DNA of 64,000 nucleotides, taken from positions 26,389,792 through 26,453,791 of the forward strand of contig OZ038456.1 of NCBI GenBank assembly GCA_964036195.1, in the 5' to 3' direction. The DNA comes from Sphaerolaimus hirsutus (Eukaryota; Nematoda; Chromadorea; Monhysterida; Sphaerolaimidae). Every line of letters starts with the position of its first letter. Positions within the stretch are counted from its first letter, which is position 1. Under the pieces are notes generated by a model, which was not told the DNA's origin, searched no databases, and was given only the letters and a program-made list of their open reading frames with translations. Position numbers and translations under genes: made by a program. This document shows, piece by piece, positions 5,126-45,099 of this stretch.

Positions 5126-5779
5126 ACACATGGTATGCTAGCATTCAATATCCTACAATACTCCCTTTATTCATTAGTTGATAAATTACAGTAAGATTGT
5201 GACAAACATGCACAAATAATTTCTATTCGGTAGATTCTTTTCACACATAAATTTTTAAGCTCTTTTTAAAGCTTTGAATTCACCATAAAATTTTCTCACC
5301 ATGAACAGCACGATTATCTGCTGAATTCCTTGGTGCAACTATATTCCCTCCTTTAAAATGTCTGCAAATTCTGAGTGACCTGCAATGCCACACAACACGC
5401 TGTGTAGCGTTCTAAAAATCTCTGGGAGATTTATATTTAAAAAATCTCAGAAAATATGATAAAATGGTAATTTAATTACATTTATATTTTTTCTGAGATT
5501 TTTCAGAGAGATTTAATTATATTTTTTATTTCTGTGGGAGAAAATATAAAAAAATCTCTGAAGTCACCTTTTTGAAAAATTTTGCACCAATTTTCATACT
5601 TTTTGCCTATTTTCACCTTCAAATACACTACAATCCATGCTTTTTCCCTTATTTTTGGCTATACATGTGTTTATTTATATACAATGTTCGGCTATTTTAT
5701 ACCCTTTTGTCTTGAAAAAGCTTACATAAAAGCCTATGTGAAATACAGGTTCTGTACTCAAGTAGTTTCAAAATGTATA
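5126..5779. other. Intergenic, AAATCTCT repeat remnants
   Basis: No gene is supported. Inverted AAATCTC/GAGATTT words at about 5405-5570 recur near 7985-8095 and in a related form near 21485-21640. They look like pieces of another element family that I could not delimit. Confidence 0.35.
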
Positions 5780-7330
5780 CCGTATTTCCTCGAAATACCC
5801 CCCCCCCCTCGAAATACCCCCCCCCCTCGTTTGACCCCCCCCCCCCCCTCCCGAGACCACTATAAAACAATCACCCCCCCCCCTCAAAATACCCCCCCCA
5901 GATTGAGTGTAAAGAGAAAGTACATGACAAATACTGAAGTAAAAGTTCTTGTGAAATACACTACTGTGCAGAATAGTTGAGACTTTTCACACATAGAGAA
6001 ACAGTAGGCTGGGGGTCCACTGCACTTTTTTGCTTCCCAATTTCTTGTCCCTTGCAGGATTTTGATGCCGTTTGAGTATGTTGGGGTTTGATGCTGGGGC
6101 TACCACAAAAATATTTTGTTTGCTCAAATAAACCCTCAGGCCCAAGATAAGGGGGGTCTATAAAAAGATGGTCAATAAATATACAAAAAATGGGCAATCT
6201 GGATGAGTGTCCTTGAAGCTTAATAACTCAACCATTTCTAGGCTGATTTGAATCATTCAACACTTCAAATGATCGGGACAACCTGCAGATACTATTTTTG
6301 TGGTCGGTTTAGTGATGTCTAAATACCGTATGTCAATTTGACCCAGTTTTTGAACATGAAAAAATAATAGTTTTGAACATGCTATCATATACTTTAGACA
6401 ACGATGATTCATTTAAAACAAAAATGAGTTCAATATCTCGTTCCAATCAAAAGTTATGGCACTTCAAATTTTTTAATGGTGTCTACATATTTTATGCTTA
6501 TTTTACTGGGGTTTGCAGCATGAAAATTTTGTTATTGAACAGTCTATAACATACTTTAGACAGAGAGAATTTATATGACAAAAACGTTTTTTCAATATCT
6601 CTTTCCAATCAAAAGTTATAGCACTTACAAACTTCCATCTCCATTCCATCCAAAATAATTGCACTATACTCATTCACAGTTGGGCCAACTTTTCTCCCTA
6701 ATAGAGCAAGGCCAAAACCTCAAATTTACACACCAAATAGCCCCACCCAGTAGTATGACTACCCCCAATTCAAAGTTGCTGGTAATGGATGCAAAACTGC
6801 AGCAAAAATTAATAAATGCCACATTTCTATATATGCATCGCCATATGCTGTTCATGCATAGAATGTTTCTTGCTGCACACAGAGCTCAGCGATGCAGGCA
6901 AGCAGTTGCAATGGTGAAAATTTTGTTAAAAAATGAACATAGGAGGTGGATATAGACTTTAAAGTGAGATACTGGGTGGCTACTGCCCAAAACAAGAAAA
7001 GTAACAACTATTCTGAAACATGAACAAACTGAGTTAATATGTTTGTACACTAGGAATATACGCAGATTTGAACTTGAGGGGCGGTCATCCTGGGCATGTG
7101 TAGTCAACCCCCCAGGGTACCCATGTATAGTATCCAAATGTTTTGCACGTCAACCATTTTGAAATTCTGGCAACATTAATCACACAGCGCAAAAAGTCTC
7201 AACTATTCTGCACGGTAGTGTAATACCCCCCTCCTCGAAATACCCCCCCCCCCTCGTTTGACCCCCCCCCCCCCTCTCGGGACCACTATGAAACAATCAC
7301 CCCCCGGGGGGGTATTTCGAGGAAATACGG
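5780..7330. mobile_element. CCGTATTTCCTCGAAATAC foldback element with an internal insertion
   Basis: Left arm CCGTATTTCCTCGAAATACC with C-runs, right arm the complementary GGTATTTCGAGGAAATACGG, flanked by TA on both sides (5778-5779 and 7331-7332). This is one of at least ten copies of the family in the window (others near 12289, 16410, 23019, 32450, 34196, 42670, 44169, 45862 and 47689). The interior is taken up by the Tc1-like element at 5959-7220. Confidence 0.8.
5959..7220. mobile_element. Tc1/mariner-like element (TA duplication), no transposase
   Basis: Inverted termini CACTACTGTGCAGAATAGTT and AACTATTCTGCACGGTAGTG, flanked by TA at 5957-5958 and 7221-7222. Such termini and TA duplication are typical of Tc1/mariner. 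The 1,262-bp interior lacks a transposase frame; the longest open frames are about 100 codons and carry no recognisable catalytic motif. It is nested in the foldback element at 5780-7330. Confidence 0.75.
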
Positions 7331-7467
7331 TATGTAATTGTGAGTACAGGTACTTTCTTCAGAGACATGTGAACATATTTACTCATTAAACTCAGTAAAC
7401 TTGATAATACATAATTTTTGAGTAAACATAAATATGTTTCAGCAACTTTGGCAAAACAAGATAAAGG

Positions 7468-11945: not shown

Positions 11946-12288
11946 CCATTGCTCCATTCTTTCTGAGACCATACTCCTAGTAGAACAGCCTCACCTGAAG
12001 GAAACAGATTTTCAAAATGAAAATTGCATAAATTTAAAAAATTTAAAATTTCAAAAAAATACTCCACTTACAGCTAAAATATTTTAGATTTTTGAGGGTA
12101 AGTAAGCGGAGAATTGCATATATCATTGTTGTGTGGAATTGAGTCGTTGAAACCATGATCGTACAGAGTTTTTATAATTGATGTTGTTTTTCTGGTAAAC
12201 CGACTAATTGTGGATAGCCATTAGAATTTCATTAATTATGTCTAGGCTGTTGAAAGGTTTTTGAACGAAATTTATAAGGGTATCATTA

Positions 12289-12720
12289 CCGTATATCCTT
12301 GAATAAGACCCCCCTCGAATAACTCCTCCCCCTTAAATAACTCCCCCCTCACATACTCTGACGAAAAAATAACTCCCTCCCTCGAATAACTCCCCCCTCT
12401 TGAATAACTCTCCCCTATGGGTACAAAATATGCTACATATTTTACAAAAAATGGTTGATGAAAATACAAAATAATGTTAACGTATGGCAGCTGCAGCAGA
12501 TACATAGCATGTATGCAATGTATACACACCTTTTTGTTGTTGTTGAACTGTCAAATAGCTGGATTACATGACAGAATGCATTCATACAATGGATTAAGTC
12601 CAAGTTTTCTGAGGAAAAATAACTCCCTCCCTTGAATAACTCCTCCCCCTTGAATAACTCCCCCCTCAAAAGCTCTGACGAAAAAATAACTCCCCTGGGG
12701 TCTTATTCGAGGATATACGG
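12289..12720. mobile_element. CCGTATATCC foldback element, TA-flanked
   Basis: Arms CCGTATATCCTTGAATAAGA and TCTTATTCGAGGATATACGG, flanked by TA on both sides. The interior has GAATAACTCCCCCC-type blocks repeated at both ends around a unique centre. Confidence 0.8.
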
Positions 12721-13295
12721 TATGTGTATTTTTACCAGGTACACAGTATGCAAACTTTAAACCATAAATTCAATATCAATCAAGTGTAACTGAACACAAG
12801 ATTATAGAAATTTGATGAAATGGTAATATACTACATATAATTCACTTTGTAAAACATGTTATCAAAATGAAAGTCCCGTCCACACTTGTCACTGACAACA
12901 CAAAAATAAAGCCACAGAAAATAAAATAAAAAACCATAGGATAATTTTGGACCATGGAATTTTAGGATGGACACCTCATAAATATTTCTTGCATCCACAT
13001 TCTGCTGCGCATGGGTCACATGGATTTTGCCATTGTTTGAGTGTGGTTGGGTTGGGGGCTGAGTCTAACCATTTTTATTGTTCTCAAGTAGTCACACAGT
13101 CCTCATTTAGGAGAGGTTGGTAGAGAAATTAAACTAATGAATAAAAGAAAAAGAATAAAAGTTTAAAAAGATTTTAATAAGATTTTAAAGACCTGAGTCA
13201 CTATTGAGTCTGGAGTCAGGGATTTTTTGATAAATAGAACAAATTACACACCAAAGAGTGGTAACTAGTGATATAAAAGTGTGCAGCGCTGGTGG

Positions 13296-15249: not shown

Positions 15250-17091
15250 TAGTGATGGAAAAGCGCCAGGAAAAATGGCGACAGGTGCCAATGGCGCTAT
15301 GGCGCTATTCAAAATAATGGCGCCGAGCGCCAAAGGGCACCAGAGAAAATGGCGCCAGGCGCCAATGGCGCCACGGCGCCATCTGAAAAATGGCGCCAGG
15401 TGCCAAAGGGCGCCAGCAACAATGGCGCTGCGCGCCAAAATGGCGCCAACGATAAAAGTCTTTATTTCAACAGGTATATCAACAGAGAGGACATTTGAAA
15501 CCGGCAGCAAAAGAACACGTGTATCACCCATCGACTGCGCCGCCGACATGTCCGAGGATAACTCCACGCCCACTGCCGCTGCCCCAGTAAGTTTGTAGGA
15601 GGTAGGGTTAGGGTTGTAGGAGGTAAGGAGTGGTGGTCAGTACTGATGAGACCCTGCCACCTCTCTCTAAAAAATCCCTGTCTACTGAAAAGGGTCGAAA
15701 CAGGGTATAGGCTTGGAGGTGCTGAGGGAGTGCACCATGTGACTTTTCCAAGCCTTTTTCACGTTTTTCACCTATTTTTTACAAGCCGCTCATTCAATTC
15801 CTCAATTTGTAGAATAGCAGTGTGTTATACCATTTTTCTGGTGTATGTACAAGAGAAAAAACTGTCTGCCACATTCAAAAAACTGAATATTATCATGAAT
15901 ATTATCTATATTTTTGTACCTATATTCAAAAAGTGTCTGGGGTTCAGTGTTTCGTATTTTCTGCCCATGAGATGCACATTTTCAATGGCAAGCACTTTGA
16001 GCAGAAACAACATTCTTCAGAATTTTCACAATTTTATACTAGGTATTGTAATGCGTTTTATGTTTGATGTATTTCACATGAGACAGCATTGAACTGGTGA
16101 TTGAACTAGCAAATCCATTTTTAGTTGGGTTGAACAATTCTATGCCACCTTTAGATGACAATTTTGAGACAAAAATGAACTCAATTAGACAGAAAAGTTT
16201 TTTAAAGGGTCAGACTAAAGGACAAGATGCATTGAGCATGATATTCAAAATATATTTTTATGATCACTCATTATTACATGCTAGCATACAGAAATCAAGT
16301 TTTCACACTTCCATGTCACAAAGCTTACTAAAACAGCCATCATATCATGAATATAAACTTAAATGTTGGCAAGAAATTTCAAGGTAAAATGCTAAACACC
16401 ATATAAATACCGCAAATCCTCGAATAAGACCCCCCCCCCTCGAATAACCCCCCCCCCCCCCTTGAATAAGTCCCCCCTGCTGGCGGGGTGAGGAAAAAAT
16501 AACTCCCCCCTTAAATAACTCCCCCCTCTCAAAGAACTCCTACTTCTGATGAAAAGGATACAATACAAAACTATAAAAGAATAGTAGCGACAGCAGATAC
16601 ATAATGTGTATACAGTGTATACACATTGTTTTGTTGTTGTTGGACAGTGAAGTACATGAATTACACGAGTTTACATACTGCATCCATACAACGAATTAAG
16701 TCCAAGTTTCCTGAGGAAATAATAACTCCCCCCTCGAATATACCCCCCCCCTTTGAATAACTTCCCCCTCCAAAACGTCTGACGAAAAAATAACTCCCCT
16801 GGGGTCTTATTCGAGGATTTAGGGTAATTTAATTCCAACTTAAAATGGATAAAAATAAACTCTCATCGTGGCATCTTGACGCCTTTTCTGGTGCCATGAA
16901 AAACATTGGTGCTGGGCGCCAAATTGGCGCCAGCAAAAATGGCGCCAAGCGCCAAGGGCGCCATGGCGCCATTAGAAATGAGGGCGCCAGGCGCCAGATG
17001 GAGCCAGAGAAAACGGCGCCAAGCGCCAATGGCGCCATGGCGCTGGCAAACTTTGGCGCCATTAGAGGGCGCCAGCGCCATTCCATCACTA
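15250..17091. mobile_element. GGCGCC-array hAT-like element, copy 3, spanning the first CDPS exon
   Basis: Begins TAGTGATGGAAAAGCGCC and ends GGCGCCAGCGCCATT followed by CCATCACTA, as in the complete copy at 18448-19378. GGCGCC arrays occupy 15265-15445 and 16905-17080. Flanking octamers CTCGTGAG (15242-15249) and CTCATTAG (17092-17099) match at six of eight positions. Between the arrays lie the first modelled exon of the CDPS gene (15548-15586), part of its first intron and a TA-flanked foldback element (16410-16824). The core does not resemble the core of copies 1 and 2. Two separate short array elements remain possible. Confidence 0.55.
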
Positions 17092-20000
17092 CTCATTAGT
17101 AAAAGAAAAAAAAATGCTTTACGTTTTCTGTACTCACCTGTGAGTAAAAAACTTTACATTTATGTTTACTTTTGAAAAAGTTCAGTACTTTTAACAACTC
17201 TGAGAACTGGTTGCGCTTGACAAATTTGGCTTTGGCAGCTGTTGTTTCTTCACAGTTGTTAAAATGTATTTAGGTAGACACCCGAATTTACATTTACCTG
17301 AAGATACATTTACTCAAAAAATTTAACATACTGTATTTCTTCTAACAGAATGACATTCCTCCAATAGAACGGCATCTCCAATAGAACGGCAGGTAAAATG
17401 GTTGACTAAAAAAATTGAACAGCACTCTTCTATTAAAAGAAATACCGTACTTGAGTACAGAGTTGCGAAAGTGTATTTACACTTACCCAAAATACCCGGG
17501 TAAATGGGTATTTATATTTACACTTACACTTACACTTTCAAAAAATACCCATACACTTTTTTTACACTTTCCTGGGCAAAATACCCGGGTACAGAAAGTG
17601 TATTTTTTTCCTTTCAGATGGCCCTGTTTTATGCTTTCGAGAAAGCATAAAATAGGGTCATGTACAAAAAATGCATTGAATGTAGAAAATATGGCAAATG
17701 TACAGTTATCCTTTGATCTACAACCTTTGATCAGTACTCATGGTATTCTACAGTTTCATCATACTTTTGTAAAAAGGACAAGATCAATGGAAATTCACCA
17801 GCTGGACACAAAGTCAACTTTTGCATTGACATTGGCTGCATATCCATTCTTGCATTTAAACAGTGTGTATCGCATTGCTCAATCAGTAAAATATCAACAC
17901 TGAAAAACTGCCATTATTAGGGAACTTCATACCACTACAGTATTTGTTACAGTCTGAAATGTTTCATAAAAGGCTGTAAAATGTGAAGTAATGCATGAAA
18001 ATGATAAATAAAGTGATCTAAAGGGGAGAACAGCGGTGTTTTCTAATGCTCAACAGTGAGTGCTCATTCAAAAAAAAAATTTTACACTTACACTTTTTTT
18101 ACACTTTCCTAGGTATTTTTAAAATACCTTACACTTTTAGTATCCATACTCAAAATTTGGAAAGTGTATTTACACTTACACTCACACTTTCCAAAAATAC
18201 CGGTATTTTAACAACTCTGCTTGAGTACTGAGTAAACACATTTACAAATCATCTGTAAAAAGACTTCCTGTGTGAATGAATGAAATGAATACTTCCTGAA
18301 ATGAATAATTCCAGAGTATACTCGGCAGACATGATACTGTACAAATAGATATGATTTATGTCTTCAGCTGGCAGACAGCCAACCGAAAACTTATGAACCG
18401 ACTCCCCTCACCACTCCACTTCACTCAACTCTGAACCGGGTCAGGGGTAGTGATGGAAAAGCGCCAGAAAAAAGGGCGCCAAGCGCCAAGGGCGCCATGG
18501 CGCCATTCGGAAAGTGGGCGCCAAGCGCCAAAGGCGCCACAGAAAAAGGGCGCCAGGCGCCAAGGGCGCCATGGCGCCATTCGAAAAGAGGGCGCCAGGC
18601 GCCAGGGGCGCCATGGAAAGCGGGCGCCAAGCGCCAAAGGCGCCATGGCGCCATTTGGAAAAAAGGGCGCCAGGCGCCAAGGGCGCCAGGATAAACAAGT
18701 GCCTACAACACCCTGCATGTGCTAAACATGTTGCTACAGCACCGTGGTACACACATTCACTTCTTGATACGCGTTCTCCACAATGTAATGAACAAAAACG
18801 AGACTAGCAACATAATTTAAAAAAATCCACATTACGAATTGAAACACAATGGAAATTGTCATTTGACAATAATCCATTCACTTCAAATAGACTTTTCCAA
18901 TCGATGTTTCCTTGAAATGGACGAAAACGGAATTGCAACGATTTGAATCCGTTTATTTGTTTATGATTTTGCAAGTTCGACGGTCTATCATTCTTGTGTC
19001 TTCTACTCTTTTGATCCGTCAGACACATCTGATGAACCGTTGGACGAAAGATTTTCACCCACTAACACCACTTCGTCCATTTTTCTGGCGAATTTAGATC
19101 ATCCACGGATGCGTTTTTCATTTTTTTCATTTACACAGCACTCATCTTGATACCCTGCTGGCGCCTTTTTGGCGCCCTTTCAAAGCAGGGCGCCAGGCGC
19201 CAAGGGCGCCACAGAAAAAGGGCGCCAAGCGCCAAGGGCGCCATGGCGCTTTTCAGAATGCGGGCGCCAGGCGCCAAGGGCGCCACAGAAAAAGGGCGCC
19301 AAGCGCCAATGGCGCCATGGCGCGGCACCCTTTGGCGCCCTCAAATGGCGCCAGCGCCATGGCGCCATTCCATCACTAGTCAGGGGGCAGTCCCAAGCCC
19401 TGTAAAGTGTAAATTAAAGTGTCAATAGTGTATCCAAATCTTATTTTTCTTATCTAAATCTTATGTTTCTGTATCCAAATCTTATGTCAAACAATAAGAT
19501 TTGGATACAAAAACATAAGATTTGGATACTTAATTGACACTTTACTTTACATTGTACTTTACTTTACAATTGACTTTGCATTTGACTTTACATTTGACAC
19601 TTTACTTGACACTTTACAGGGCTTGGGATTACTACCAGTTACTGTGGACTGCAGTTATGATGTCATGATGGAGTGTAACCTCCAGAAAAATGTAGGCTGT
19701 AATGTTGCCCAAGTATACAGAAAACATATTTCAGAAATTTCAATTTGGACATAAAAAGACTAAACACTAAACTAAACACTAAACAAAAAAGACTATCTAT
19801 ACTGTCATGTATTTACAGAAGTGCTAGGATTGAAAATTTTAAAACACATCTTTTTGCCCGCAAGTGTAAAAATGTAAAAATTACTTGGTTTTACATTTTC
19901 CACAAAAAGTACTTGCCTGCCTTGAAATATTCCATGCACAAGTCCCCACTTTAAAATTTTTCAGGGACAATATTTACGTATTAAACAATGTAATCATGTA

Positions 20001-23000
20001 TTTAATATTAATGAAAAAAGTTATTTTAATCACGTTTACTTATGAGTGCAAGTTAAAGAATTTTACTTTACAATATATTTGTACTTGTTGCTGTGCGCTT
20101 GGTGTGCATAAAACAATGTTTAACATTTCAATATAAATACTTTGAAAAAGTTGAGTAATTTTAACAACTCTGTATTTCTCCAGCTACTGAACCAAAAACC
20201 AAAATTGTTCATATCGCTTAAAACACGCGTTTTTCACACAAATTAGAATAAAGTGTATTAAACTGAATAACTGATTAGGTATACACGAGTTTCGCAAAAC
20301 GTTCGCTCGCAAAACGTTTTTCGAAAAAGCCACTAAGCAAACAATCAAACCAAACTTGTGATAATTCAAATCAACATCCTTTATTTGTTTGTTTTGTAGT
20401 AAATACATAAATTGAATGACGCGCTTGAATGGATGTCGAAAATGCGTCAAAAAACAACGGTTTTTGCGCAAATCTTGGCTAAACAATAAAAGCTCGGTTT
20501 TGGTGTTTTGGGTGGGGTTTGTTTTTGGTGATAGCATGTTTTGTTCGAAAGCATTCATTGGCAGAAACTGTGTGAAACTCCCAGACCCTGTAAAATGCCC
20601 TGCAAAATGTCAAATGTCATGCAAAGTGTCAAAAGTCATGGAAAATGCCCTGCAAAATAGCAAACGTACGTGTGCCGTTTTGCAGGGCATTTTCCATGAC
20701 TTTTAACGCTTTTTAAGGGGGAACAACTCAGGGCGGGGGGATTATTCAAGGCGAGGAATTATTTTTCCTCACTCACCTTACAGGGGGCATTATTCAAGGG
20801 GGAACTATTCAAGCAAATACGGTATATTTATCACACATTTTCCACCCGTGCTACAATCCGTTTGATGAAGTTTCTGTGTAAACCATAAGGAACAATGCAA
20901 TTTCAAGTTTGCTAGCAGGCTGTAACACATATTTATTTGCTGTGATTAACCGACTGCAAACAAACACATGTGAAGTCAATTTGACGTCAATATGAAGTCT
21001 GCGCTGACTATAAAATGTGGTGGGGCGGCTGGCAGTCACAACAGACAAGCCACAGTCAGAGTCAACTTACAAAGTCAACTCAAACCGTCAACTGAAGTTG
21101 GACTGGTGCCAAATACAACTGCACATAAAGGATCTTCCGGAGGATAACTGAAATCTGAGCAATGGCTCTGCAGATTTGCACTATGGATGTTAGTGTTTGT
21201 TTGTTCCTAGTTGTAAAAAGCACTATTCCTACTGAAAAGTGATTGTGGCTTTGTGAAGACAAGGACACTTCTGAATTGTAAAACATCAAAAAAAATCAAA
21301 AAGTCATAGATGTTTCTAAATTTATATTTGCTACTGTAAAATGGAAAAAGTCATACAAAATGCCCTGCAAAATGGCAGACGTTGAAAAAAATACAAAGAT
21401 TTTACATTTTACAGGGTAATTCAAAGTCCATTAGTAATTAGCCGAATCCAGTCCATCCATCAGGATCACCTCTGTTAGCATAGTAAAATCTCTGGGTGAT
21501 TTACCTAAATAGGTATGCATGCATAAAAGTTTTAAAAAAAATACTTTTTTTAAGTATTCAAATTCCATATAAATATACCTTTTCTAAATTTACATCCTTT
21601 TTTCGAATCTTTTAATAAAATTACACTCTCAAAATCACCCATGTGCCACTCCCAGACCCTGTAAAAAGCGCTGTAGAATGTCAAATGTCATGCAAAGTGT
21701 CAAAAGTCATGGAAAATTCCCTGCAAAATGGCAACTGTTGCCATTATGCAATGCATTTTCCATGACTTTAGACACTGCATGACACTTGACATTTTACATG
21801 ACATTTTACAGGCTCTAGGATAGTTCCCCCAAATCCTCATCCCCAACCCCAAACCCCTCTCAACCCCAACCCCCACAGGTCTACAGCGCGCGCATGAAGG
21901 GCTACAACGACTCGCCCAAAGCGGGCCGAAGCAACAAGCAGCGCAAGGCGTCTAGCAGCGACGTGGCCCTTGTGGGCATCAGCTTGAAGAACCCCGCGTT
22001 CACTGGCCACAGGCTCAGGGCCATGGTCAAATTGGTGCAGGCTACTTTTGGGAAGGAATCTTTTGTTGGTTGGGGTTGGGGTTGGGAGAGACTTGTCAGT
22101 GATTTGACCTGTCAGACTATTTACTTGTCATTTTTGGTTGGCAAATTTTTTGAGATAGGGTGCGGGACTGCCCCAGGTTTGGAAACTACTATGCACACGT
22201 TTCACTGAATTTTACTACAATAAATAAAACACTGAAAAAAGTAAAACAGTATTTTTGACGTCAGATTTCTATGAATTATTTTGGTGATAAACATTTCACG
22301 TCATAGCATTCATTAAAATACGGTAACACATATACATCGTCACCACGCCAATCATCATTTACCATATAACAAACATTACTCACGCCAAAAATCGCTCTCA
22401 CAAACTCAACCCAAATACCCCCCACCCCAGTTCCTGCTCTGCGACTCGAACCACCGACACAACGTGTGGGCGGAGTCAGAAACCCCCTGCGACCAATCAG
22501 CAGAGACCACGGGGGCGGAGTGCAGCGAACCAACGGAGGAGCACAGAACCAGGGCTATGGAGATGGGCGATAAGTGGATAAAGGAGAATTGGCAGTTTGT
22601 TGAGGATTTGCAGCCCAAGGTTGGTTGAGTTGGAGGTTTGGGGTATTCACAGATAATGTAAAAAGCCCTGTAAAATGTCAAATGTAAAATGTCAACCGAG
22701 TTGCCATTTTGCAGGGCATTTTCCATGACTTTCAACACTTTGCATGACATTTGACATTTTACAGGGTCTGGGAGTGGCACTTGACTTACTCCCCGGACCG
22801 CGTGCTATGCATTTTTTCTGGGGGAAACGCTCGATCATGTCGTCATCATTAAGTAACTCATAATTGTTCAAAAAAGGAAACACTTTAGAGGAAAACCGTT
22901 CGCATCTCGTACGTGACTCCACCTTGTTCTATCTGAAATATTTTTTGTGAAAGTGCGTGCATACATAACTGTCCAGGTCACGCGTTATTGATTGATACAT

Positions 23001-25224
23001 AAGTAAGTTTTTCACATACCGTATTTCCTTGAAATACCCCCCCCCCCTCGAAATACCCCCCCCCCTCGTTTGACCCCCCCCCCTCTCGGGACCACTATGA
23101 AACAATCACCCCCCCCCCTCGAAATACCCCCCCAAATTGAGTGTAAAGGGAACGTACATGACAAATACTGCAGTTTGTGTTCTGTGTACTGCAGAACACA
23201 CGTTAAAACAATGTCGGTGTCACGTTAGAACAGTGTACATACCATCTACATACTAATATTAGTCTACAGAACCTTATAAATGGCGGTTTTTGTTGCATTT
23301 TTCGACGTCTGCGTACGTTTCAGACGACTATTTCGTACTTGGTTTTCAAAAATTTTCTTGTGAAATAATAACCCCCCCCCCCCTCGTTTAACCCCCCCCC
23401 CTCTCGGGACCACCATGAAACAATCACCCCCCGGGGGGTATTTCGAGGAAATACGGTACTTTGCTATCCGCCGAGTAAAATTATGCTAATAATACACCAA
23501 AACCAAACATGTTAGATCTAGTGTTGGAAAAGGCACCGGAAAAACGGCACCACACCGCACCGACACCGGTGCTATTCTTAAAAAAATTGAACCGGCACCG
23601 CCAGGGCACCCTCAAAAAAAGTCACCGTGCCCCGGTGCCTTTTTATCACTAGTCACATCAACCAATCCATAACACTGTGGAATATTTGTTTCAGCTGGTG
23701 CGCTGGGACGAACTCGCCCAACAGACTGGGCTCTTTGCCAAGTGGCAGGGAATCATTGTGGACATGTTGGAGAACGACCAGGAATTTACCCAGGTCAGTT
23801 GGAGCATAACTGAATTGTGTGTGGGATGGAATATTGTTCATGGTGCTGGATAGGGTTGGCAAAATCTCAGGAAAAAAATAAAATTAAAATAAAATTGAAA
23901 ATTGAAGAATAAAATAAAATAAAATCTAAGTAAAATTAAAGTATAAAAAAAATTTCTACAATTTTACTGCAATTTTAGTAAAAAGAATTTTACTAAAATC
24001 TATCCTGGTGCTGGCACATTTTACATCAGTAGCTAGCAGGCTTTGAAGTGACAACAATTTTATGCAGAGCCACAGAATGTAATGATGTATCCAAAACTGA
24101 CTTCAAAAATGTAAAAATTCAAAATACCTAGTGGTAAAAAATACAACAAGTATTATAACTTGAAAAGCTAATCTAAAAGTGTTAAAATGCGAAAATTCGA
24201 AAACCATTTCTGGAAAAAGTCAAAATGTTTTTTTCTTCCAAAAACATATTGCCCAGAGGGTTCATAATCACAAAACCTATAACCCAACCTCCCCACCCTT
24301 ATCCACAGGCAATCGCCAGCGACCTGGACAGGTTCACAGCAGCCAAGTTGGCTGGTGATGGCATTGACAAGGCCAAAGCTGACAGGCTCGTGCGCGCCAG
24401 CACCGCCTACATCGTGGAGGAGTGCATCGTGCTCGGTGAGTCAGATTCTGATCGGTACTGATGCATCAGATTGATTTTATGTTGTTGGGTCGTGTGTAAA
24501 ATGGAGTTGGGGAGTGTGTGGAAGTGTGTGGCTAGTGCCACTCCCAGACCATGTAAATGTGAAATGCCATGTAAAGTGACTTAAGTCATGTGAAATGACA
24601 AACATCCTGTAAAAAACAGAAATTTGTCATTTTCCAGGACATTTTACATGATTTTTGACGTTTTCCATCACATTTGACATTCTACAGGACAAATTTCAGT
24701 ATCCATCCACGTGCACCACAACTTTTCACAGCAAAAACAGTGCCAGTGATCTGCTGTGATTAGCAGTGAAGTGTCTTCACGCGGACCCTTGTAGGCACTT
24801 CAATGCAATTCACAAATTTCTAATTTTTTGTTTCTATAAAAAATTAGTAAACAAATTCATGAAGTGTCGGTGAAGTGCATTCCATCGGTGATCAGGCTCT
24901 AAAGTGTGCTCACAAGGGGCACTTCACACCACTTGAGCCTTCATGAGCACATCGTTTGCTGTATCTGTCCATCTCCACCCATCCCCCGTCCCAGGCATGC
25001 TGAGCAGCACGGTGGACATGGTGCTGTACCCGGGCAGGCTGCCGCACTGCGTCAACGTGGCCGGCAGCAGATTCAACAAGATGCTAGGTATACAGACAGA
25101 GAATGAATTCAAGTTGCAGCTTAGGGAGGTGACCTTTAGGAAGATTGCCAGGGGAAAGGGCAGTGCCTGAGTGAATGTGTTTTTGTGTTGTTTTTTTTCA
25201 GGCTCAAAAGCCAGATTCGAGTAG
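15548..25224 (+). CDS. tRNA-dependent cyclodipeptide synthase (CDPS), seven exons
   Basis: Exons: 15548-15586, 21879-22064, 22431-22619, 23695-23793, 24309-24435, 24995-25087, 25202-25224 (stop TAG 25222-25224); 251 codons. All introns are GT-AG with phases 0,0,0,0,1,1. CDPSs take two aminoacyl-tRNAs, load the first aminoacyl group onto a serine, and release a cyclic dipeptide; the fold resembles class Ic aminoacyl-tRNA synthetases. Visible hallmarks in order: VGISLKNPAF with the catalytic-type Ser48; FLLCDSNHRHN at 76-86; GDKW at about 122; RWDEL at about 141; a YIVEE block with Tyr205 and Glu209 (the Y-x-x-x-E pair); and LYPG with Tyr225-Pro226, as in the XYP subfamily. Length fits the family (about 220-290 aa). 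The start ATG 15548 has A at -3, but the same frame is open upstream to 15131, and exon 1 is less certain than the rest. Exons are GC-rich like those of the neighbouring gene. No tailoring enzyme gene is adjacent. The family call is from memory of motifs, not a search. Confidence 0.85.
16410..16824. mobile_element. Foldback element in CDPS intron 1
   Basis: Arms CCGCAAATCCTCGAATAAGA and TCTTATTCGAGGATTTAGGG with TA on each side. The two ends repeat GAATAACTCCCCCC blocks. Variant of the CCGTAT family. Confidence 0.75.
17458..18219. mobile_element. Non-autonomous hAT-like element in CDPS intron 1, exact TSD
   Basis: Starts CAGAGTTGCGAAAG and ends TTTTAACAACTCTG, with a perfect duplication CTTGAGTA at 17450-17457 and 18220-18227. 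Subterminal repeats are TTACACTTTA/GTAAATACAC, a variant of the ACGTTTACG words used by 13568-14609. 762 bp, no transposase. Confidence 0.88.
18448..19378. mobile_element. GGCGCC-array hAT-like element, copy 2, complete with exact TSD
   Basis: Termini TAGTGATGGAAAAGCGCC and GGCGCCATT followed by CCATCACTA, with a perfect 8-bp duplication GTCAGGGG at 18440-18447 and 19379-19386. Arrays at 18460-18690 and 19155-19365 consist of about 40-bp units built from GGCGCCAAGCGCC / GGCGCCATGGCGCC. The core is the reverse complement of that in copy 1 (665-1300). 931 bp, no transposase. It lies in intron 1 of the CDPS gene. Confidence 0.9.
19384..19632. mobile_element. Palindromic repeat, AGCCCTGTAAAGTG family
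   Basis: Arms GGGGGCAGTCCCAAGCCCTG and CAGGGCTTGGGATTACTACC. The centre contains repeated TATCCAAATCTTAT words and their complement, a different loop from the other copies. It abuts the right TSD of the GGCGCC element 18448-19378. Confidence 0.75.
20577..20710. mobile_element. Palindromic repeat in CDPS intron 1
   Basis: CTCCCAGACCCTGTAAAATG start, arms of TGTCAAATGTCATGCAAAG type meeting near 20665. The right outer end is replaced by sequence of a different, half foldback element (20715-20825) that ends CAAATACGGTATA. Confidence 0.65.
21645..21826. mobile_element. Palindromic repeat in CDPS intron 1, upstream of exon 2
   Basis: GTGCCACTCCCAGACCCTGT left end; arms AATGTCAAATGTCATGCAAA and partly decayed complement ending TTTTACAGGCTCTAGGA. 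It ends about 50 bp before the exon 2 acceptor at 21878. Confidence 0.7.
22655..22778. mobile_element. Palindromic repeat in CDPS intron 3
   Basis: Short copy with AAGCCCTGTAAAATGTCAAA left arm and TTTGACATTTTACAGGGTCT right arm. The left arm is shortened relative to other copies. Confidence 0.65.
23019..23456. mobile_element. CCGTATTTCC foldback element in CDPS intron 3
   Basis: Arms CCGTATTTCCTTGAAATACC and GGTATTTCGAGGAAATACGG, TA-flanked. Interior blocks of GAAATACCCCCCCC and CGTTTGACCCCCCCC type occur near both ends. Confidence 0.8.
23519..23651. mobile_element. Short hAT-like element (133 bp), relative of the GGCGCC family
   Basis: Ends TAGTGTTGGAAAAGGCACCG and CGGTGCCTTTTTATCACTA, flanked by GTTAGATC (23511-23518) and GTCACATC (23652-23659), six of eight identical. 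The interior carries GGCACCG words in place of GGCGCC. It lies about 43 bp upstream of CDPS exon 4. Confidence 0.65.
24534..24695. mobile_element. Palindromic repeat in CDPS intron 5
   Basis: GTGCCACTCCCAGACCATGT start and decayed arms (ATGTAAAGTGACTTAAGTCATG and the TTTTACATGATTTTTGAC complement). An older copy of the CCCAGACCCTGTAAA family. Confidence 0.6.
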
Positions 25225-26483
25225 AGCATATTGCCCAATGAAGCGTAAAAGTGCACAATTTCAGTTCCTAGTTAGGCACCTCATGTTTTTATTGAATTGA
25301 GCACCAGAGAATTGTACAGTGTCATTGCTGTTGAATTTTATAGTCATTGAATCTTTGTTGTGTCATTTGAAACTGCTCGATTGTTGGATGGACTTTATAC
25401 TGCGTGTGAACTTTATTTTTAAAATATTGTATTAAAAACTTTATCTATTTGTCCTCATTTATTTCTGTCCATCTCATGCTGCTTTAAGTTGTATCTACAG
25501 TTGTGTTGTAAAGAAATACCTATGTCTGAATAACCCATTTCAACATTTAGTGAGTGTTTGGCAGCTTGTAAATACCTTTGTAAATAGCTTGTATGTTTCC
25601 TTTCACCGTTCTCTTTGGCTTTATCATTGTGATAAATTATTTCCAGTTTCTAAATATTTCATAACTTGTTACACCTTCATTGAAATAAATGTAAATTTCA
25701 TATTCTTTGCTTAAACTGGTTTAAAGCTGGTTTAAAGATTAATTTAATGCAAAGAAAAGGGGCACTAATGTAGGCAACTTCAACTATACATATTGATGTA
25801 GTTAAAGCAATGTCCATCACATTAGAAAAAGGCAACAGTGAGACATTCTGTTTTTTTTGTCTCTAATAATCAGTGTAGAACTTGAATTCATGGCAACAAA
25901 AAATTAATATTGGTCACACAGAGCAAACACAAAAGACAAACCATGAGCCTATATATGTCACATAAACTGTCCACAGCTAAATGGAACAAAAACATAATAC
26001 ACATTGCAATTTTCATAAGAAGGTATATTGGACAATTGTGAAAAACAGATGTGCCATAAACTGACAATGAAAACTAAATTTAATCATTGCACTGAGACAT
26101 CCATTCATGAACTTTGTCTATGCCTATTACCTTTGACTGGATTTTAATAATAACACTTATCTCAGAGTTATTTGTCAAACTGACTTTGAGTTTTCACATT
26201 CCAGTTAAAAGTTTTTTGAATATGCACACAATAACTAAAAAGGTAGACTAGAGTTGCATTGAGTAAATATTTATCATCTAATAATGGACTCAGCAAACAG
26301 CACATAAATACATAGGTACATAAGTTCCTCAGCCAAAAATTAAACAGCACCACATGAAACCAGATACTGTAAATCCTCAAATACATCCCCCAGTCAAAAA
26401 ACTCTCTACAGGCCCTTATTCCAGGATTTAGAGTACTCAGCAGTGAAAATAGGCGCACTGAGCACTGAGCAGTCACATTAGCA
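25225..26483. other. Convergent intergenic region, probable CDPS 3' UTR
   Basis: AT-rich sequence between two stop codons facing each other. The first part is probably the CDPS 3' UTR, ending after AATAAA at 25684-25689. A degenerate CCGTATTTCC-type remnant lies at about 26366-26436. No gene is seen. Confidence 0.55.
25684..25689 (+). terminator. Candidate polyadenylation signal of the CDPS gene
   Basis: AATAAA about 460 bp after the TAG stop, in AT-rich sequence. It is the first clear canonical hexamer on the plus strand downstream of the stop. Confidence 0.4.
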
Positions 26484-29400: not shown

Positions 29401-32400
29401 TGCGGTTAAAGTCAAAAATGAAACATTTGGACAGCAGCAATTTTCATAGATTTTAAAACAATCACATGAATTAAAATCATTGGCACACGGCTAACAAGAA
29501 ATTCTCAAGCATGGGTACTAAATGGGTATACTCGGCGGACTGCAAAGTATGCGCCCAAAATTACTTATGTCTTGGTCGATAACGCGCGAGTAGGATACTT
29601 AGGTGTCCACTTTCACAAAAAAAAGAAAAATATTTTAAAAATAAAAAGGCGGTATCGAGTTCAAGCGATGAATGTTTTTTCCTGGAAAGTTTTTTTTGCT
29701 GGAACAATTTTTTTTTAACGATGGCGTCATGATGGAGTGTTTCCTTCAGAAAATTGCATAGCATGCGGTCCGCCGAGTACACTAAAGTAAGCATAGTATA
29801 CTCGGCGTACATGATACTCTGCCCTCGCACTGATTTATGTCTCGTGTTGGAAGCGTGCCAATGATCATTAAATTATGCGATTTCCGTAAAAAGATGAAAA
29901 AATTCATCGATGTGAATATGTTTATGAATAAGATTATAACAACAATCAATTTTGTCATATTTTATGAAACTTGCATGCGTTAACGATCGTTGGCACACTT
30001 CCAGCCGGAACCATGCGTGCAAGGTGTAAAGTAACCAGAGTATATACCTATTAACCAAACCGACAAATTATCCTGGTGCTGCTGCCTCCACCTGGGCACG
30101 AACTTTCCCCCGTGCTCTTGCTGCGGTGCGGCCGCGTGCACCTGCTGCACCCCGGTGCCTGGTGCTGGTGCTGGTGCTGGTGCTGGTGCGTGCACCTGGG
30201 GTTGGTGCTGTTGGTGCTGCACCTGGTGCTGTTGGTGCTGCGCCGGTGCGTGTTTGTGTTGCGGTTGTTGTTGCGGAACCTGCTGCCGCGGCGCTTGCGG
30301 CTGCCGCGTGAACATTGGGGACCTGTGAGGGAACGTTGGTGCAAACTAGGCGCTCGTGTTATTTACAGGGAAACTGGTTCAATTCCTGCATGAGGGAGTG
30401 AAAATTTTGCACTTTCTTTAGTGATGGTAAAAATTGCACTGGCGTCACTTTGGTTTTGAAACTCGACCTAGCTAACTCAATCCAAAGCCTGGACCCGATA
30501 CACAAAGTTTCAATTTTCCTAGTAGATAATTCTGGTGAATTGACTATTCCTAATTAGACCAATTGGCAGGGGTCTCCTAGGGGGGGGCTGGGGGGGGGGC
30601 TGCTACTACCCCCAAAGACCCCCCAAATCGCTCAGCTATCCATCTATTTGGTGTGGTTTTTCAGAAGTTTTCCCCCAATTTTCGCTCAAAATCACTACTT
30701 TTCACACCCTTTTATAGTTTTTCACCTTCAAAATCGTGCTCTCCAGCATTATGCATGGTTATATGCCTGTTTTTAGCCATTTTAAACCTACTTTTAGCCA
30801 CTTTTAACCAATTACTAGCGATTTTTTCCCCTTTCGGCTTTCTATGCACTGAAGAAGCCTATATATTTTGCCCCCGCGAGCCACCCCCCCCCCCCAAGCC
30901 CCCCCCAGCAAAATTTTTCAGCTATCTATCCCTTGGGAGGAGCGATTTGCTATCTATCCAGCCCCCGCGAGGGCCAAAATCTTGGAGACCCCTGCCAATT
31001 GGCAAGTCTGTCAACTGGCCAGTCAACTAAAATCAAAAACCACCTACACAGGCTTAGCCTTGGGGCCCCTTCCGGTGATCTTAGCCACCTGTTCAACTGA
31101 AATCAGCATGGTGGTGCTGCTGACCGACTGCGGGGCGGCTTTTTTGGCTCGCATTTGCGCGTGGCTCGACCCGCGCGGAGATAGAGGCATGTGGTATACT
31201 GGAATCCGGGTTTAGGTGTTATTTGAGTCGGGTTTTGGAAGATGGAAATATGGAGATGTGGAGATTTTGAGAAAGGAAAAATCAAATGAGTTTTTTGGGA
31301 TATTTTCAGATTTAAATTTCAGAGTCTGGCCTGGCACAAGTGAATTTTTCAAATTCGCTTGTGTCAAATATTTTTAAAAAAATTGAAATTTGAACTTTGA
31401 ACCTCATTCATTCTAAACCATTCTATTTTTTGAAACAAAACGTGAAGCTCAAAAAAAAATATTCAGAAAAAGGAAAGTCTAAAAAAAATTCCGCATCGAG
31501 TTTGCGATCGAAGGCAGCAGCATGAGCTGGGCATACCGGTAATTTGCACCACTTAAATTTGGGAAACTCAAAAATATTTTTGAATACATTTGACTGTATC
31601 CGAGTGAGGAGTACTATTGAGGGAGTGTGCGGAACGCGCTGGTAAAAGAATGTAAACATGTCTGATTTTGCATTAAAGGTGGCAGCGCAGCTTTGATCAT
31701 TTTTTGGTTATCTGTTGTAGACATAATAACATTTATATTCATTTTACCTTTACTTATATGAAAGGTTTTGCAATTTGAGAGTCCGGAAGCTTGCCGTTTT
31801 CACTTCACTCTATGATATACGACTTTGAGCAATAAATATTTATTCTGAGTTGACTTTGTGTTTAATTAGAAATAATTCAATTTAAACATAAAATCGGACA
31901 ACTAATTTTGCATGCTAAGGGATTTTACAGGGAGGTCAAAAATGATCAATTCTGGTAAAAACTCAAATGTGTTCAAAACGGAGCTAGGAATCCCATAATT
32001 TCTGTGGTGTACAAGTGTACGTGGCCACAATACACCCTTTCTCACAGCCCTTTCCCGTACACTGTAATCTCTACCCCCCCCCACCCACCAGGCACATTAA
32101 AGGCGGGGTCAGTGAGGGGTCTGGGCGACAATCTGTGGCCCGCAGCCATGGCCGGCGACTCGACGAAGGGGCGCTGCTGCGGCGACAACGGCGTGGGCGA
32201 CTCCGGGCGTTGAGGGACTTCGTGCGCCACTGCCAGGGGGTTGGTTTGGGGTTCAAACGGGATTGACTTTTCGGGATCGGGATTGGTATTGGTATTTTTG
32301 GATTTCGGGATCGGGATCGGGATCGGGATTGGGGTTTCGGGATCGGGATTGGGATCGGGACTGGTAAATCCCAGAATTTCACGGGATCCGGGATTGGGAT

Positions 32401-35400
32401 CGGGATCCCGTTTGAACCCTGGTTGATTTGGGGGTGTTTGAGGCAGATACCGTATTCGCTTGAATAGTTCCCCCTCTTTCAATAATTCCCCCTCGAATTA
32501 TTTCCCCCTCTAAGATAACTCAGGAAATTATAATTCCCCAGGGAGATTTTTCAAGCAAATACGGTATAAGAAGCGTTTGGTTCTGAGTGTTGATAAATTC
32601 TTTGTGTTAAGCACAAAACCGGCAACAGTAGAATTGGCCCCGTACAATTTGCTATTTTTTTTTTGAATTTGTCTTTCCTTGCGAATTGCAGTTGCCATTT
32701 TTAACGGGTCACATTTTGATACTTTTGGGAAAAATCAGATTCAAATTGTTAAAAAAGATCCGGTACGAAAAATTTGGTTAAATAATCGATAAAAAATCGA
32801 TTTTTTGGACTTATCGACTTCGGGTGTATAGAAGTAGGCGCTTCAAAACCCTGTAAAATTGCGCCAACCCGCAGTATCCACATTGAGCGCGTGATGGTGC
32901 GGCGTGGCGCCCGCCGCGTGATGATGGTGGTGCGCCACGGCACCTCCCCCATGCTGGGCACCACCGGCGTGCTGTTGGTGCTGTCTGTGCTGCAGCTGCG
33001 TCAAGTTGGGCGCCTGCGTCGCCAGCATCTCCAATGGGGCCGGTTCTTGCCGCGGCGGCTGGAACGCTGCCGTGTCCGTGTGCTGCAGCACTTTGTCCGC
33101 TGCCGGTGGGGTAATTGGGTTGGTTTAATTGGGTGCATTTTGGTGTCTAGGAGTTCTTGGACGACATGACGCGGCGGCGTAGAATCAAATGGCGCCATTG
33201 ACGTTGTCTTACGATGGCAAACATGTTTTTGGACACTTTTGGGCTTTTTTTGGGCTTTCAAATTTTTCACATGAAAATCGTTGGGTTTTCCTCCCAAAGG
33301 AAACATTTCGGTATTGGAAGTGGTCCAAAAAAATTTAAGTTAAGGATCTACATAGTAAAAAAACCTGAAAACGTTTTCAAAAAGTTTGGAAATAGGAAAT
33401 TGACTTTTACAACTGTTGCTAATAAAAAATCAAAATTTGAATACTCATAACGAATTAAAAAAACGCTTAAAAACTAAAATACATTGTCCATAAACCTTGC
33501 CATCATTAATCCCGGCCGCCTAGCAATTCTAGAATACTATAACCATGGCGCAGCACCATGAAGCCCCCCCCCCTGGGGGTGCACTGATACGCACATCTGC
33601 CCGATACGCACATTTGCCCGTTTTTTCACTTGACACTTTTTCAAGTGATTTTCAGATATGAGTAAAGTGAAAAAAGTTTCGCAATGACATTAGTGAACTT
33701 TTTTCACTTCACTCATATCTGAAAATCACTTGAAAAAGTGTCAAGTGAAAAAACGGGCAAATGTGCGTATCGGGCAGATGTGCGTATCAGGCCTGCCCCC
33801 CCCCCCCTCCCCATGCGACACAACTCACCCATGGACGCGTTCCACCCCACTCTGTTGACCTTGTGCTGCTGGGCGACGCTGTCCTGGGTGATCCAGGCGT
33901 CGCCCCTGGCGCCAATGTTCATCTTGCCCGGCCGGTAGCCCCTCCTGGAAGGGGGTGCCGCACCGGGGGCAGTTGGTTCTCTTGGTGGCCATTCGGGGTC
34001 TAGCTGGCCTGTGGGGGGGGGGGTGATAAAATTACGATTTAACGTAAATACTCTATTAGTAAGACCCCCCTCCGATAAAGCAACCTCTCCAATGGTGCGA
34101 CCCCTTTCGGTCCGTTGTGTGAGTATAATGCGAACACGTCAAAGCAATAGTGCGACCCCCTAAGGAAAACAAAAAAAACGACGAAAAACAAAGTACCGTA
34201 TTTACTCGAATAATTCCCCCCCCCCTCGAATAATTCCCCCCTCGAATAATCCCCCCCTGTTAGACGAGTGAGGAAAAAATAATTCCCCCACTCGAATAAT
34301 TCCCCCCAATGGACGAAAAACACAACCCATATATCTTAAAAAACAATTGATGACGCCAGAACAAGCAAATACAGTCATCCCCGGGTTATCGGGTGGCACA
34401 AAATTCTCGAAAACTTACCCGATAATGCGGGGAACCCGATAACCGGGGGGTGTAATGTTGAATCGCCACGGTGCTGGCGCGTGCATTTACCATCATTTAC
34501 ATTCATAATAAGTGACTACGTTATATGTATTATGCTCTGCGGACAGCTAGTTTACATTCACATATTTTACATGTGTTTGATGCAATAATGCAATACTACG
34601 AATGCACCTTCACAAAAAAAGGGGTCACAAAATTCGGAATACCCTATAACTGAAACCGTTTTGTATACAAAAATGCAGAACGTGTTCACAAATCCCACCC
34701 GATAACCCGGGAATGCGGGGAAACCTTCAATCCGGGGAATTTAGTTCACACGTGTCCCCGGTTTTCACAATTTCACCCATTAACCCGGGGAACCCTATAA
34801 CCGGGGGAACCGTTAACCCGGGGACGACTGTAGCTGCGTCTGCTGTGATTCAGCGATGAATGCACATCCGGTGTAAAAAAATGCAATGGAATATGCACAA
34901 TGAATGGCGACGGAACCTACATGTGTATGTGTGTGTACGTGTATTGTTGTTGAATTTGAACATGAATTGGCGTGCTATTTTGTTATAAAGCAAATTCCAC
35001 GAATGAATTGAAAGAAACATCCTTGAAAATTTTGACGAAAAAATAATTCCCCCACTTGAATAATTCCCCCCCTCGAATAATCCCCCCCTCAAAAAAGTCT
35101 GACGAAATAATAATCCCCCGGGGGGATTATTCGAGTAAATACGGTATTCAATGCGCTAAAAACTATAATGCGACATTCGCATTAATAAGAGCATTTACGG
35201 TAACTAATTATAAGGTTTAAGATTGGATAATCAAGTTTTTTTCTGGCAAAAAATCTTTTAAAAATTTAACACGTTTTCAAAATTTGGATTTATCGACATT
35301 TCCGACATAAGTGGACGCCTCAATTCCAAAATTGAAAAAACAAACAAATTCACAACTTCCACAGCCCCCCCCCATCCCAGCACCCAAATGCACCCAGCCA

Positions 35401-38400
35401 ACCCACCAGGATGAACCTCCCCACGTGCCACCTCCACACGCACATCATGCTCCGGCACGAAGTCCTTGTGCAGGTGCACCTTGGGCAAGGGCTCGTGCGG
35501 CTGCGGCGCGGGGCTCACTGGTGCCGGCTGCTTGGGAGGGGCCGTATGCGGGCTGCTCGCTGCCACCGGTTTCGGTTGGGGCGAGTGCTGCGGATTTTCC
35601 AGTCGGGATTAGCCTTCCACATTTCCACCTCTGACATAAATTCCCACAAAGTAATTACCTAGGTACTGTATTTCCTTGAAATACCCCTAGGGATTTTTTC
35701 AGAGTGCAAATTTTGAGTGGGGGATATTTCGAAGGGAGACCTCATTCCAGATGAGGGGGGTTTGGGTTTATTTTTCCCTTATCTCGCTCAGACCTGGGGG
35801 CAATCCCAAGCGCTGTAAAGTGTAAAGTAAAGTGTCAAATGTAAAGTCAAATGCAAAGAAAAGTGTCAATCAAAACAAAAAAGAAAAGACTTTATTACTG
35901 AACTTTGCATGACAATTGACAGTTTACTTTGCATTTGACTTTACATTTGACACTTTACTTTACACTTTACAGGGCTTGGGATTGCCACCTGGGGATATTT
36001 CGAGAAGGGTGTAATCCAAGGGGGGTATTGGGAGGAAGTACAGTAGACCCAAAATTTCCAAACAATCTAAGACAAGATAGGGATTTTAAGTACCATTCAC
36101 CTTTGGCTGTGGACTTTCTTTCTGCGTTTGCACTGCAGGTGCAGGTGCCTTAGCAATATCATGCTGCTTCACAGCCACCTTATTCACTTGTTCAATGACA
36201 TCAGGCGGGGGTCTGAATGGATTGACCTGTGGTTGTGATCTCTCTGGTGCCCCACCACCGAAAACTGCTGGCAGCTTGGGGGAAGGCTCTTGTTTGGCAC
36301 TCGGATGCTCATCTGAAAGTGTAAGTATCAATTTTACCTGCTTATAGATTGTTGGAATGGGGCAGGCCTGATACGCACATCTGCCCGTTACGCACATTTG
36401 CCCGTTTATTTCACTTGACACTTTTTTAAGTGATTTTCAGATATGAGTGAAGTGAAAAAAGTTCACTAATGTCATTGCGCAGCATTTTTCACTTTACTCA
36501 TATCTGAAAATCACTTAAAAAAGTGTCAAGTGAAACAAACGGGCAAATGTGCGTAATGGGCAGATGTGCGTATCAGTGCACCCCCGTTGGAATATGTCAA
36601 TCTTTTGTGTTTTCTCTTGTGAACTATTTGATGTTCAGTGATAGCTTGTTTTGCATTTGGCAGATATCCAGCCAGACATTGGAATAAATTCCTAAAACAC
36701 ACCCCGACTGAGATCCACCGAGATTGTGATACATACAGGGGTGGGCATCTTCAGTTACCGCTGGAAAAACGCGATAGCTTGAGCTACAGTTGAGCTATAA
36801 CAATGAAATTGTAACACAATAGAGTAGACTCCATAGGACACCTATGCTGAAGTTTGCAACCCAAACGGCCACAGTTTGGAGGAGTTGTGGAACACACAGT
36901 TTTTAGTGTAATTTTGTGACTTCACCTCCCTTATCTCGGGACTGGGGGACTATTCGAGTAAAAAAAGAATTTGGTAGTAGGCGCGACCACAACATACTCA
37001 AAGGGCATCAAAATCGGCCGATGTACGACAGAATGGGACGACACCAACGACCGATGACCCCCCCCCCCTCAAATGCCACCCTCGATTTATCCTATGGGTG
37101 ACGCCAAGTCACAAAATTACACTAAAAACCGTGTGTTCCACAATTCACCCAAAATGTGGCCGTTTGGGTTGCAAACTTCAGAATAGGTGTCCTATGGAGT
37201 GTAGTCTATTGTGTTAAAATTTCATTCTGATAGCTCAACCGTAGCTCAATCTATCGCGTTTTCCCAGCGGTAACTGGAGATGCCCACCCCTGTAGTATGT
37301 GGAGTTGTGAACTGCCCTGTCTGGTGAGTATAGGTAAATTTGAAGTTGCAAAATTTCAATACTCAAGGTACCCCCAACTTCAGCCACATGATAAATAAGT
37401 GAAGTGTGTAAATTAGTTCATTTATTGAACACCACAACAACTATACTCCAGCGACTTTACACCTTGCACGCGTGGTTCCCACTGGAAGTGTGCCAACGAT
37501 AAATAACGCACGCGATTTTCATAAAATGTTGAAAAAAATTTATTGCTGTCATAACATTATACATTTACATATTCACAACAATGAATTTTTTCAACTTTTT
37601 ACAAAAATCACTGCTTTAATTATCATTGGCACACTTCCAACATGAGACATAAATCAGTGCGAGTGCAGAGTATCACGTCCTTCGAGTATATTCTCCTCCA
37701 AAGAATGCCCCCACCAATTGAACCCACCAGTCTGCACGTGCAACTTGTGTGTATGCGCAGGTGCTGCAGTCGTAAAGCCATGCGTGTCCCCCGCAGCCGC
37801 AGGGGCGTCCCTCCACTTGCCGTCCTCAAATACACCCAGCACTTGGGGTTCTATGTCCTGGGTTATTGCTGCCGTGCTGGCGGGGGTGTCCGCGCCTTGC
37901 TGTGGTGGTTTTTGCAGCTATTGAGGTGGCTATTTGCAAGAGTCATTGAACCCGAATTTTTGAGGATTGAGTTTGGTATGGATACAGAATTGGTCCCACA
38001 CATTTTTCACCAGTTTTTTTAATATCACTTGCACAATTTTGAATGAGTTTCAAAACAAAATTTCCAGCAAAAAAAAATCAAAGAGTCCATACAGTATTTA
38101 TGCAACAAAAAGCTAATAACTCCCCTTTTAGTGGAAAAATAGTTAAAAAATGTGTTGAGTCCATGCTCCAAAAGCTTCCATAATTCGATAAGTCATCCAT
38201 ATCTATTGTTATCAGCAAGTCAATAATCCACATTTACTAGAGTTATTTCTGGATGTTTGAGGCAGGAGCTACTGTGCTGAGTAAACACTCAGTGTCCATT
38301 GATTTTTTTTCAGTTATATGGCATCAGCATATCACTGCTCCATCAAAATAGAGTATGCCACTAAGCATGGAATGACTCACCCAGACCTTTCCATCAAAAA

Positions 38401-45057: not shown

Positions 45058-45099
45058 CTGCCCCAAGCCCCGCCCACTCATTGACTAGGGTGCTGTCGC

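Follow-up and report, generated by a model that had tools for sequence, protein, structure and literature searches.

A spliced gene for a predicted XYP-type cyclodipeptide synthase in a most likely animal genome

The locus at 15548–25224 of a 64,000-nucleotide stretch of contig OZ038456.1, deposited as Sphaerolaimus hirsutus (the whole stretch is called the window below), raises the question of whether an animal genome carries its own gene for a cyclodipeptide synthase (CDPS) and, if so, of which kind. An original prediction, made from the DNA letters, had placed here a gene of seven phase-matched exons with a 251-residue product bearing CDPS landmarks. The analysis reported here establishes the gene with a splice-compatible frame, assigns its product to a family and a subfamily, and finds all four catalytic residues in place. 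The favoured explanation, which is judged probable, is a nuclear, spliced gene for a CDPS of the XYP subfamily in a host that is most likely an animal, with the enzyme role being predicted. We infer the animal host, expression, fold, activity, product and any role in chemical defence or signalling.

Judged by its sequence, the 251-residue protein is a genuine CDPS homologue. The family model TIGR04539 matches residues 34–244 with 33.5 bits (E 2.9e-8), and a search of solved structures returned 9i5m, 5mlq, 9iam, 5ocd, 5mlp and 9j61 at E 1.2e-8 to 1.2e-4, the leading matches presumably being enzymes of Nocardia, Fluoribacter and Rickettsiella; the eight sequences that this search listed at E ≤ 10 do not include AlbC. 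An XYP profile was built from a set of 114 proteins, of which those of 200–300 residues were kept and thinned to 44, with the query excluded. The query scored 80.3 bits against this profile vs. at most 3.5 bits for 1000 shuffles, which excludes chance similarity. The check by family profile that the original prediction had proposed thus gave significant matches with TIGR04539, the solved structures and the XYP profile, although the curated cut-offs of Pfam and TIGR04539 were missed. When small alignments that joined the query to its solved relatives were used for searching, 114 proteins came back in one case and 121 in the other (of which 120 were listed), most of them without an organism name and all of the named ones bacterial, with identities to the query mostly of 18–28% and one of 54% over only 5% of the query.

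For residue comparison, a wider set was assembled by reducing 231 fetched sequences to 224 proteins of 195–350 residues and then to 133, to which Nbra-CDPS, the best solved-structure match, and four solved enzymes of the second subfamily, NYH, were added, giving 138 comparators. The "XYP rows" are the 133 proteins plus Nbra-CDPS (134 in total), labelled by retrieval and by Tyr-Pro; the XYP sets were gathered by word matches to query-containing alignments with solved XYP enzymes, and thus do not sample the family without bias. The residues Ser48, Tyr205, Glu209, Tyr225 and Pro226 were located at the positions originally named, and the first four fall in the columns of AlbC S37, Y178, E182 and Y202, so that the landmark claim holds for all four catalytic residues. 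Ser48, Glu209 and Tyr225 are identical in 138/138 comparators, and Tyr205 in 136, the other two having Phe. In the 44-row alignment (the query and 43 XYP proteins), I47, S48, G121, W124, W142, Y205, E208, E209, Y225 and P226 are invariant.

The same residues bear on which subfamily the protein joins, and on a rival reading in which it would be a member of the NYH family known from Nematostella, corals and marine worms. Asn51 does equal the N of NYH, and the NYH signature (Asn40, Tyr202 and His203 in AlbC numbering) is present as far as Asn51 and Tyr225. However, Pro226 replaces the His, which is found there in 4/4 NYH rows, Pro being found in 133 of the 134 XYP rows; the XYP signature at the same AlbC positions (40, 202 and 203) is complete as N51, Y225 and P226. 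G121, W124, W142 and E208 occur in 134/134 XYP rows and in 0/4 NYH rows. An NYH profile made from the four solved enzymes, with no animal sequences, gave the query 8.4 bits (top shuffle 6.7), in contrast to 80.3 with the XYP profile, and HHalign returned a probability of about 10% against the four NYH rows vs. 99.3–99.4% (E 5.5e-21 to 9.2e-21) against the 134 XYP rows. A quick tree of 139 rows placed the query among the XYP rows with the NYH rows apart (SH-aLRT 100, computed without bootstrap), and pointed to no bacterial donor. NYH membership is thus considered very improbable, being rejected on profiles, residues, tree and HHalign with four non-animal NYH sequences for comparison, and by sequence the protein belongs to the XYP subfamily. 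AlbC itself is an NYH enzyme, so the earlier suggestion to superpose a structural prediction on it did not survive: it is not the nearest template.

The closest characterized enzyme is Nbra-CDPS (5mlq and 9i5m), which we take to be from Nocardia brasiliensis. It matched at E 1.2e-8 with 27% pairwise identity, and shares with the query the catalytic residues and the GD-W-x3-N, RWD, AI-S--DRF and EEC motifs. In contrast to the query, which is split by introns and has an insert of about 15 residues before the GDxW helix, Nbra-CDPS is bacterial, and it has Ala at the X position where the query has Asn. Rgry-CDPS (5mlp, E 7.2e-6) and Fdum-CDPS (5ocd, E 2.4e-8), both of the XYP subfamily, share the catalytic set with the query, and Rgry-CDPS also the YPG and GIS motifs; both differ in having Gln at the X position, with identities of 25–26%. 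FoCDPS (31ee), presumably fungal from its name, scored 33.5 bits against a profile (A2) and was not listed at E ≤ 10 for the query alone. Nbra-CDPS is described as an XYP enzyme with cyclo(Ala-Glu) as its product (PMC13062777). In the excerpts considered of PMC5816076, the marine-animal CDPSs are placed in NYH, and the eukaryotic XYP enzymes come from fungi; the latter resemble the query in being eukaryotic XYP proteins but are fungal. Nvec-CDPS2 of Nematostella and other marine-animal CDPSs are animal-encoded like the query, with chemistry presumed to be the same, and are set apart from it by their description as NYH enzymes with His after the cyclising Tyr (PMC5816076, PMC2922099).

The gene itself was rebuilt from the range and the residue landmarks of the original prediction. 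All features lie on the plus strand. Seven exons join into one open frame of 251 residues ending in TAG, with GT..AG at 6/6 junctions, phases 0, 0, 0, 0, 1 and 1, and CAG acceptors in all six introns, so that the seven phase-matched exons could be reproduced as described. Exon 2 (21879–22064) encodes a basic N-terminal stretch (beta-2-like) and the catalytic loop with Ser48 (VGIS-LKN). Exon 3 (22431–22619) holds Asp80-x3-Arg84-His85, the insert of about 15 residues and the XYP-type residues Gly121, Trp124 and Asn128; exon 4 (23695–23793) the XYP-type Arg141-Trp142-Asp143; and exon 5 (24309–24435) the catalytic helix with Tyr205 and Glu208-Glu209. Exon 6 runs over 24995–25087 in the 251-residue reading, where it ends at the donor of the sixth intron (25088–25201, 114 bp, GTATAC..CAG), and the seventh exon (25202–25224), which adds SKARFE and the stop, is doubtful. 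The candidate exon 1 (15548–15586) encodes 13 residues, is weakly supported, by its start context and a good phase-0 donor (CCA followed by GTAAGT), and precedes an intron of 6292 bp (15587–21878); three distinct GTRAGT donors of phase 0, this one included, can be reached from an ATG within the 7 kb that precede exon 2. This exon is plausible and not established.

Might the locus be a real CDPS homologue that has decayed or is not expressed? The donors of introns 1–6 are, in order, GTAAGT, GTTGGT, GTTGGT, GTCAGT, GTGAGT and GTATAC, of which two or three are poor, and the two weak GTTGGT donors together with the uncertain first exon would fit such a history. However, the frame is intact, with no stop and no frame break in 252 codons over seven exons or in 272 codons over six, the acceptors are CAG throughout, and third codon positions are biased. 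The GC content is 0.56–0.64 in exons 1–6, 0.48 in exon 7 and 0.41 in the whole window, and the six-exon version has GC1 0.53, GC2 0.43 and GC3 0.77 (GC at the first, second and third codon positions), which is a coding signature. Decay or silence is therefore considered very improbable.

The six-exon version differs from the seven-exon one in where the protein ends. If exon 6 is read through to the TGA at 25170 (24995–25170), the product has 271 residues, and Tyr225-Pro226 is followed by a basic C-terminal strand (EFKLQLREVTFRKIARGK). The number of residues after Tyr-Pro is 33–96 in 44/44 XYP rows, 45 in the 271-residue model and 25 in the 251-residue model; the shorter end is doubtful because it falls below all 44 rows. 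In alignment, the extension EFKLQLREVTFRKIARGKGSA falls on the basic strand at the C-terminus of XYP enzymes, which reads RVAWLPLRFKK in Nbra-CDPS, and it resembles their tRNA-binding beta-7 strand. When the two basic strands were sought as marks of membership, the N-terminal stretch was present and the C-terminal one appeared in the 271-residue reading only. Profile scoring was tried as an arbiter between the two ends and proved uninformative: whole-model profile scores are equal, HHalign likewise does not separate the versions, and a C-terminal profile gives the two ends 0.7 and 0.0 bits, the longer end being matched by 1061/2000 shuffles. The extension has a GC3 of 0.63, which is weak support because 378 of 2648 stop-free intron windows reach that value. 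Further downstream there are poly(A)-like signals, ATTAAA at 25431 and AATAAA at 25684. The six-exon gene ending at TGA 25170 is favoured, with 25088–25201 probably being coding sequence and 3′ untranslated region in the main form, or otherwise an alternative splice, and both C-terminal forms could coexist. Of the six spliceosomal introns originally proposed, the spliceosomal type was borne out, and the sixth intron with exon 7 probably does not belong to the main form.

Several observations weigh against the favoured reading of an XYP-type enzyme encoded by a spliced gene. The donor GTTGGT of introns 2 and 3 is off consensus. The TIGR04539 score lies below the curated cut-off of 45, and the Pfam family PF16715 gave 16.3 bits (E 0.0084), below its cut-off of 27. 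When the sequence was searched alone against 5.8 billion proteins, 443 candidates sharing words with it came up, none of which reached E ≤ 0.001, and the best identity to any relative across a sizeable portion of the query is 26–28%. The residue at the X position, Asn51, is seen in 2 of the 134 XYP rows, Gln being present in 101; N-Y-P is nevertheless compatible with XYP because X may be any residue (PMC13062777). No branch of the tree is longer than that of the query (4.25 changes per column), and the tree tool warns of long branches meeting at the query, whose position within XYP is not fixed, which leaves room for neofunctionalisation or a lost activity. These features give some weight to a protein with the CDPS fold that does not synthesize cyclodipeptides, and would instead bind charged tRNA or another ligand, or make a linear dipeptide or another aminoacyl-transfer product: the long branch, the low identity to relatives, the insert in exon 3 and the Asn at X all fit it. 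However, the four catalytic residues are retained together with Gly121, Trp124, Trp142 and Glu208, the frame is open with its high GC3, and the active bacterial Cglo-CDPS also carries inserts (PMC7566563). This non-cyclising alternative is accordingly regarded as unlikely, though it is the strongest of those considered.

Since most CDPSs are bacterial (PMC4159871), a contaminating or symbiont contig could have been the source of the sequence. Against this stand five or six GT-AG introns, a BEL/Pao element within the same window, and 3228 of 8807 intron bases that match repeats elsewhere in the window, namely 2357/6292 in intron 1, 731/1075 in intron 3 and 140/559 in intron 5. Introns 2 and 4 contain no stretches matching repeats elsewhere in the window, and exons 2–6 have no match elsewhere in it. 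Because introns 1, 3 and 5 share repeats with the flanks, the gene sits in the repeat landscape of its host. Bacterial contamination, which the original prediction had also argued against, is ruled out by the introns and by the intron repeats common to gene and flanks, and its probability is negligible.

The host is most likely an animal, as suggested by the nearby BEL/Pao element and the long introns; introns of 366–6292 bp in the six-exon model disfavour a fungal host. BEL/Pao elements are an animal group. The element in the window, of the long terminal repeat (LTR) type, spans 50035–62592 and looks recently inserted, its LTRs (50035–51328 and 61299–62592) being 99.69% identical over 1294 bp. 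It contains a gag/protease-like frame (52532–54556; DUF1759 and an aspartyl protease), a pol-like frame (54560–59974; Pao peptidase, reverse transcriptase, integrase zinc domain and DUF5641) and a third frame (59978–60709) that matches PF24664, a viral fusion glycoprotein family that we take to be of the Monjiviricetes, negative-strand RNA viruses, with 29.2 bits (cut-off 27); this frame is possibly a captured envelope-like gene. Dispersed GGCGCC-rich repeat clusters lie at 18454–18691, 19151–19376, 16900–17090 and 1271–1580, and the intron 1 stretches that contain them match the left part of the window at 80–87%. C-run-rich repeats in introns 1 and 3 (16402–16826, 23016–23174 and 23373–23458) match 12281–12722, 5777–5940 and 7243–7332.

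No convincing second CDPS copy was found in the window by tblastn, the best other piece scoring 18.5 bits in intron 1 (15661–15714) and the rest having E ≥ 0.9. Tailoring enzymes or other pathway neighbours were not recognised, with none of twenty selected open fragments above a Pfam cut-off, and among nine window proteins scanned with Pfam, a set that shares one member with the twenty, only the frames of the LTR element exceeded theirs. On the minus strand, the region 29983–45084 holds GC-rich open fragments, in part rich in Gln, His and Pro, which could be the exons of a gene on that strand; ten of these fragments matched no Pfam family above cut-off. A mobile-element origin was considered and rejected, there being no match among phages at E ≤ 1 and eight weak plasmid records (E 0.07 and 1) that are taken as chance. 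Among viral contigs, two stretches fitted a pattern and none was confirmed. No RNA families or tRNAs were found in the window.

If the protein works as its XYP relatives do, it would hold a charged tRNA by the acceptor stem with its two basic strands, beta-2 near the N-terminus and beta-7 near the C-terminus, as the tRNA-binding strands of XYP enzymes do (PMC7566563, PMC13062777). The first amino acid would enter pocket P1 and pass from the tRNA to Ser48, and the second would be brought by a second charged tRNA. Tyr205 and Glu209 are expected to anchor the substrate, with Glu209 acting as the base, and Tyr225 may help the dipeptidyl-enzyme to cyclise, releasing the diketopiperazine; these are the catalytic roles described for CDPSs in PMC7566563. 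By analogy, one may guess at a function in defence, since the CDPS gene of Platynereis is reported to be induced during the antibacterial response (PMC2922099).

To our knowledge, animals are rarely credited with secondary metabolites made from charged tRNAs. The eukaryotic phyla given with CDPSs in the excerpts of PMC4159871 and PMC11610984 are Ascomycota, Annelida, Ciliophora and Cnidaria, and the excerpts of PMC12945691 and PMC13062777 name no animal CDPS. No report of an animal XYP CDPS was found in the literature searched, a search that mostly did not extend to subscription papers. This kind of enzyme is known already; what appears to be new is a deep-branching XYP member with introns in an animal, and the XYP placement makes the gene more unusual than the original prediction supposed. 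On balance, it is slightly favoured that animals have acquired CDPSs at least twice, once as the NYH type of cnidarians and marine worms and once as an old, intron-rich XYP-type enzyme on its own deep branch, with a tRNA-dependent route to diketopiperazines. A spliced animal XYP gene would, if this is true, mean that the pathway arose in animals a separate time and provide a new, directly testable enzyme distant from the characterized ones, and it could bear on the source of diketopiperazines in some animals, which might otherwise be put down to their microbes.
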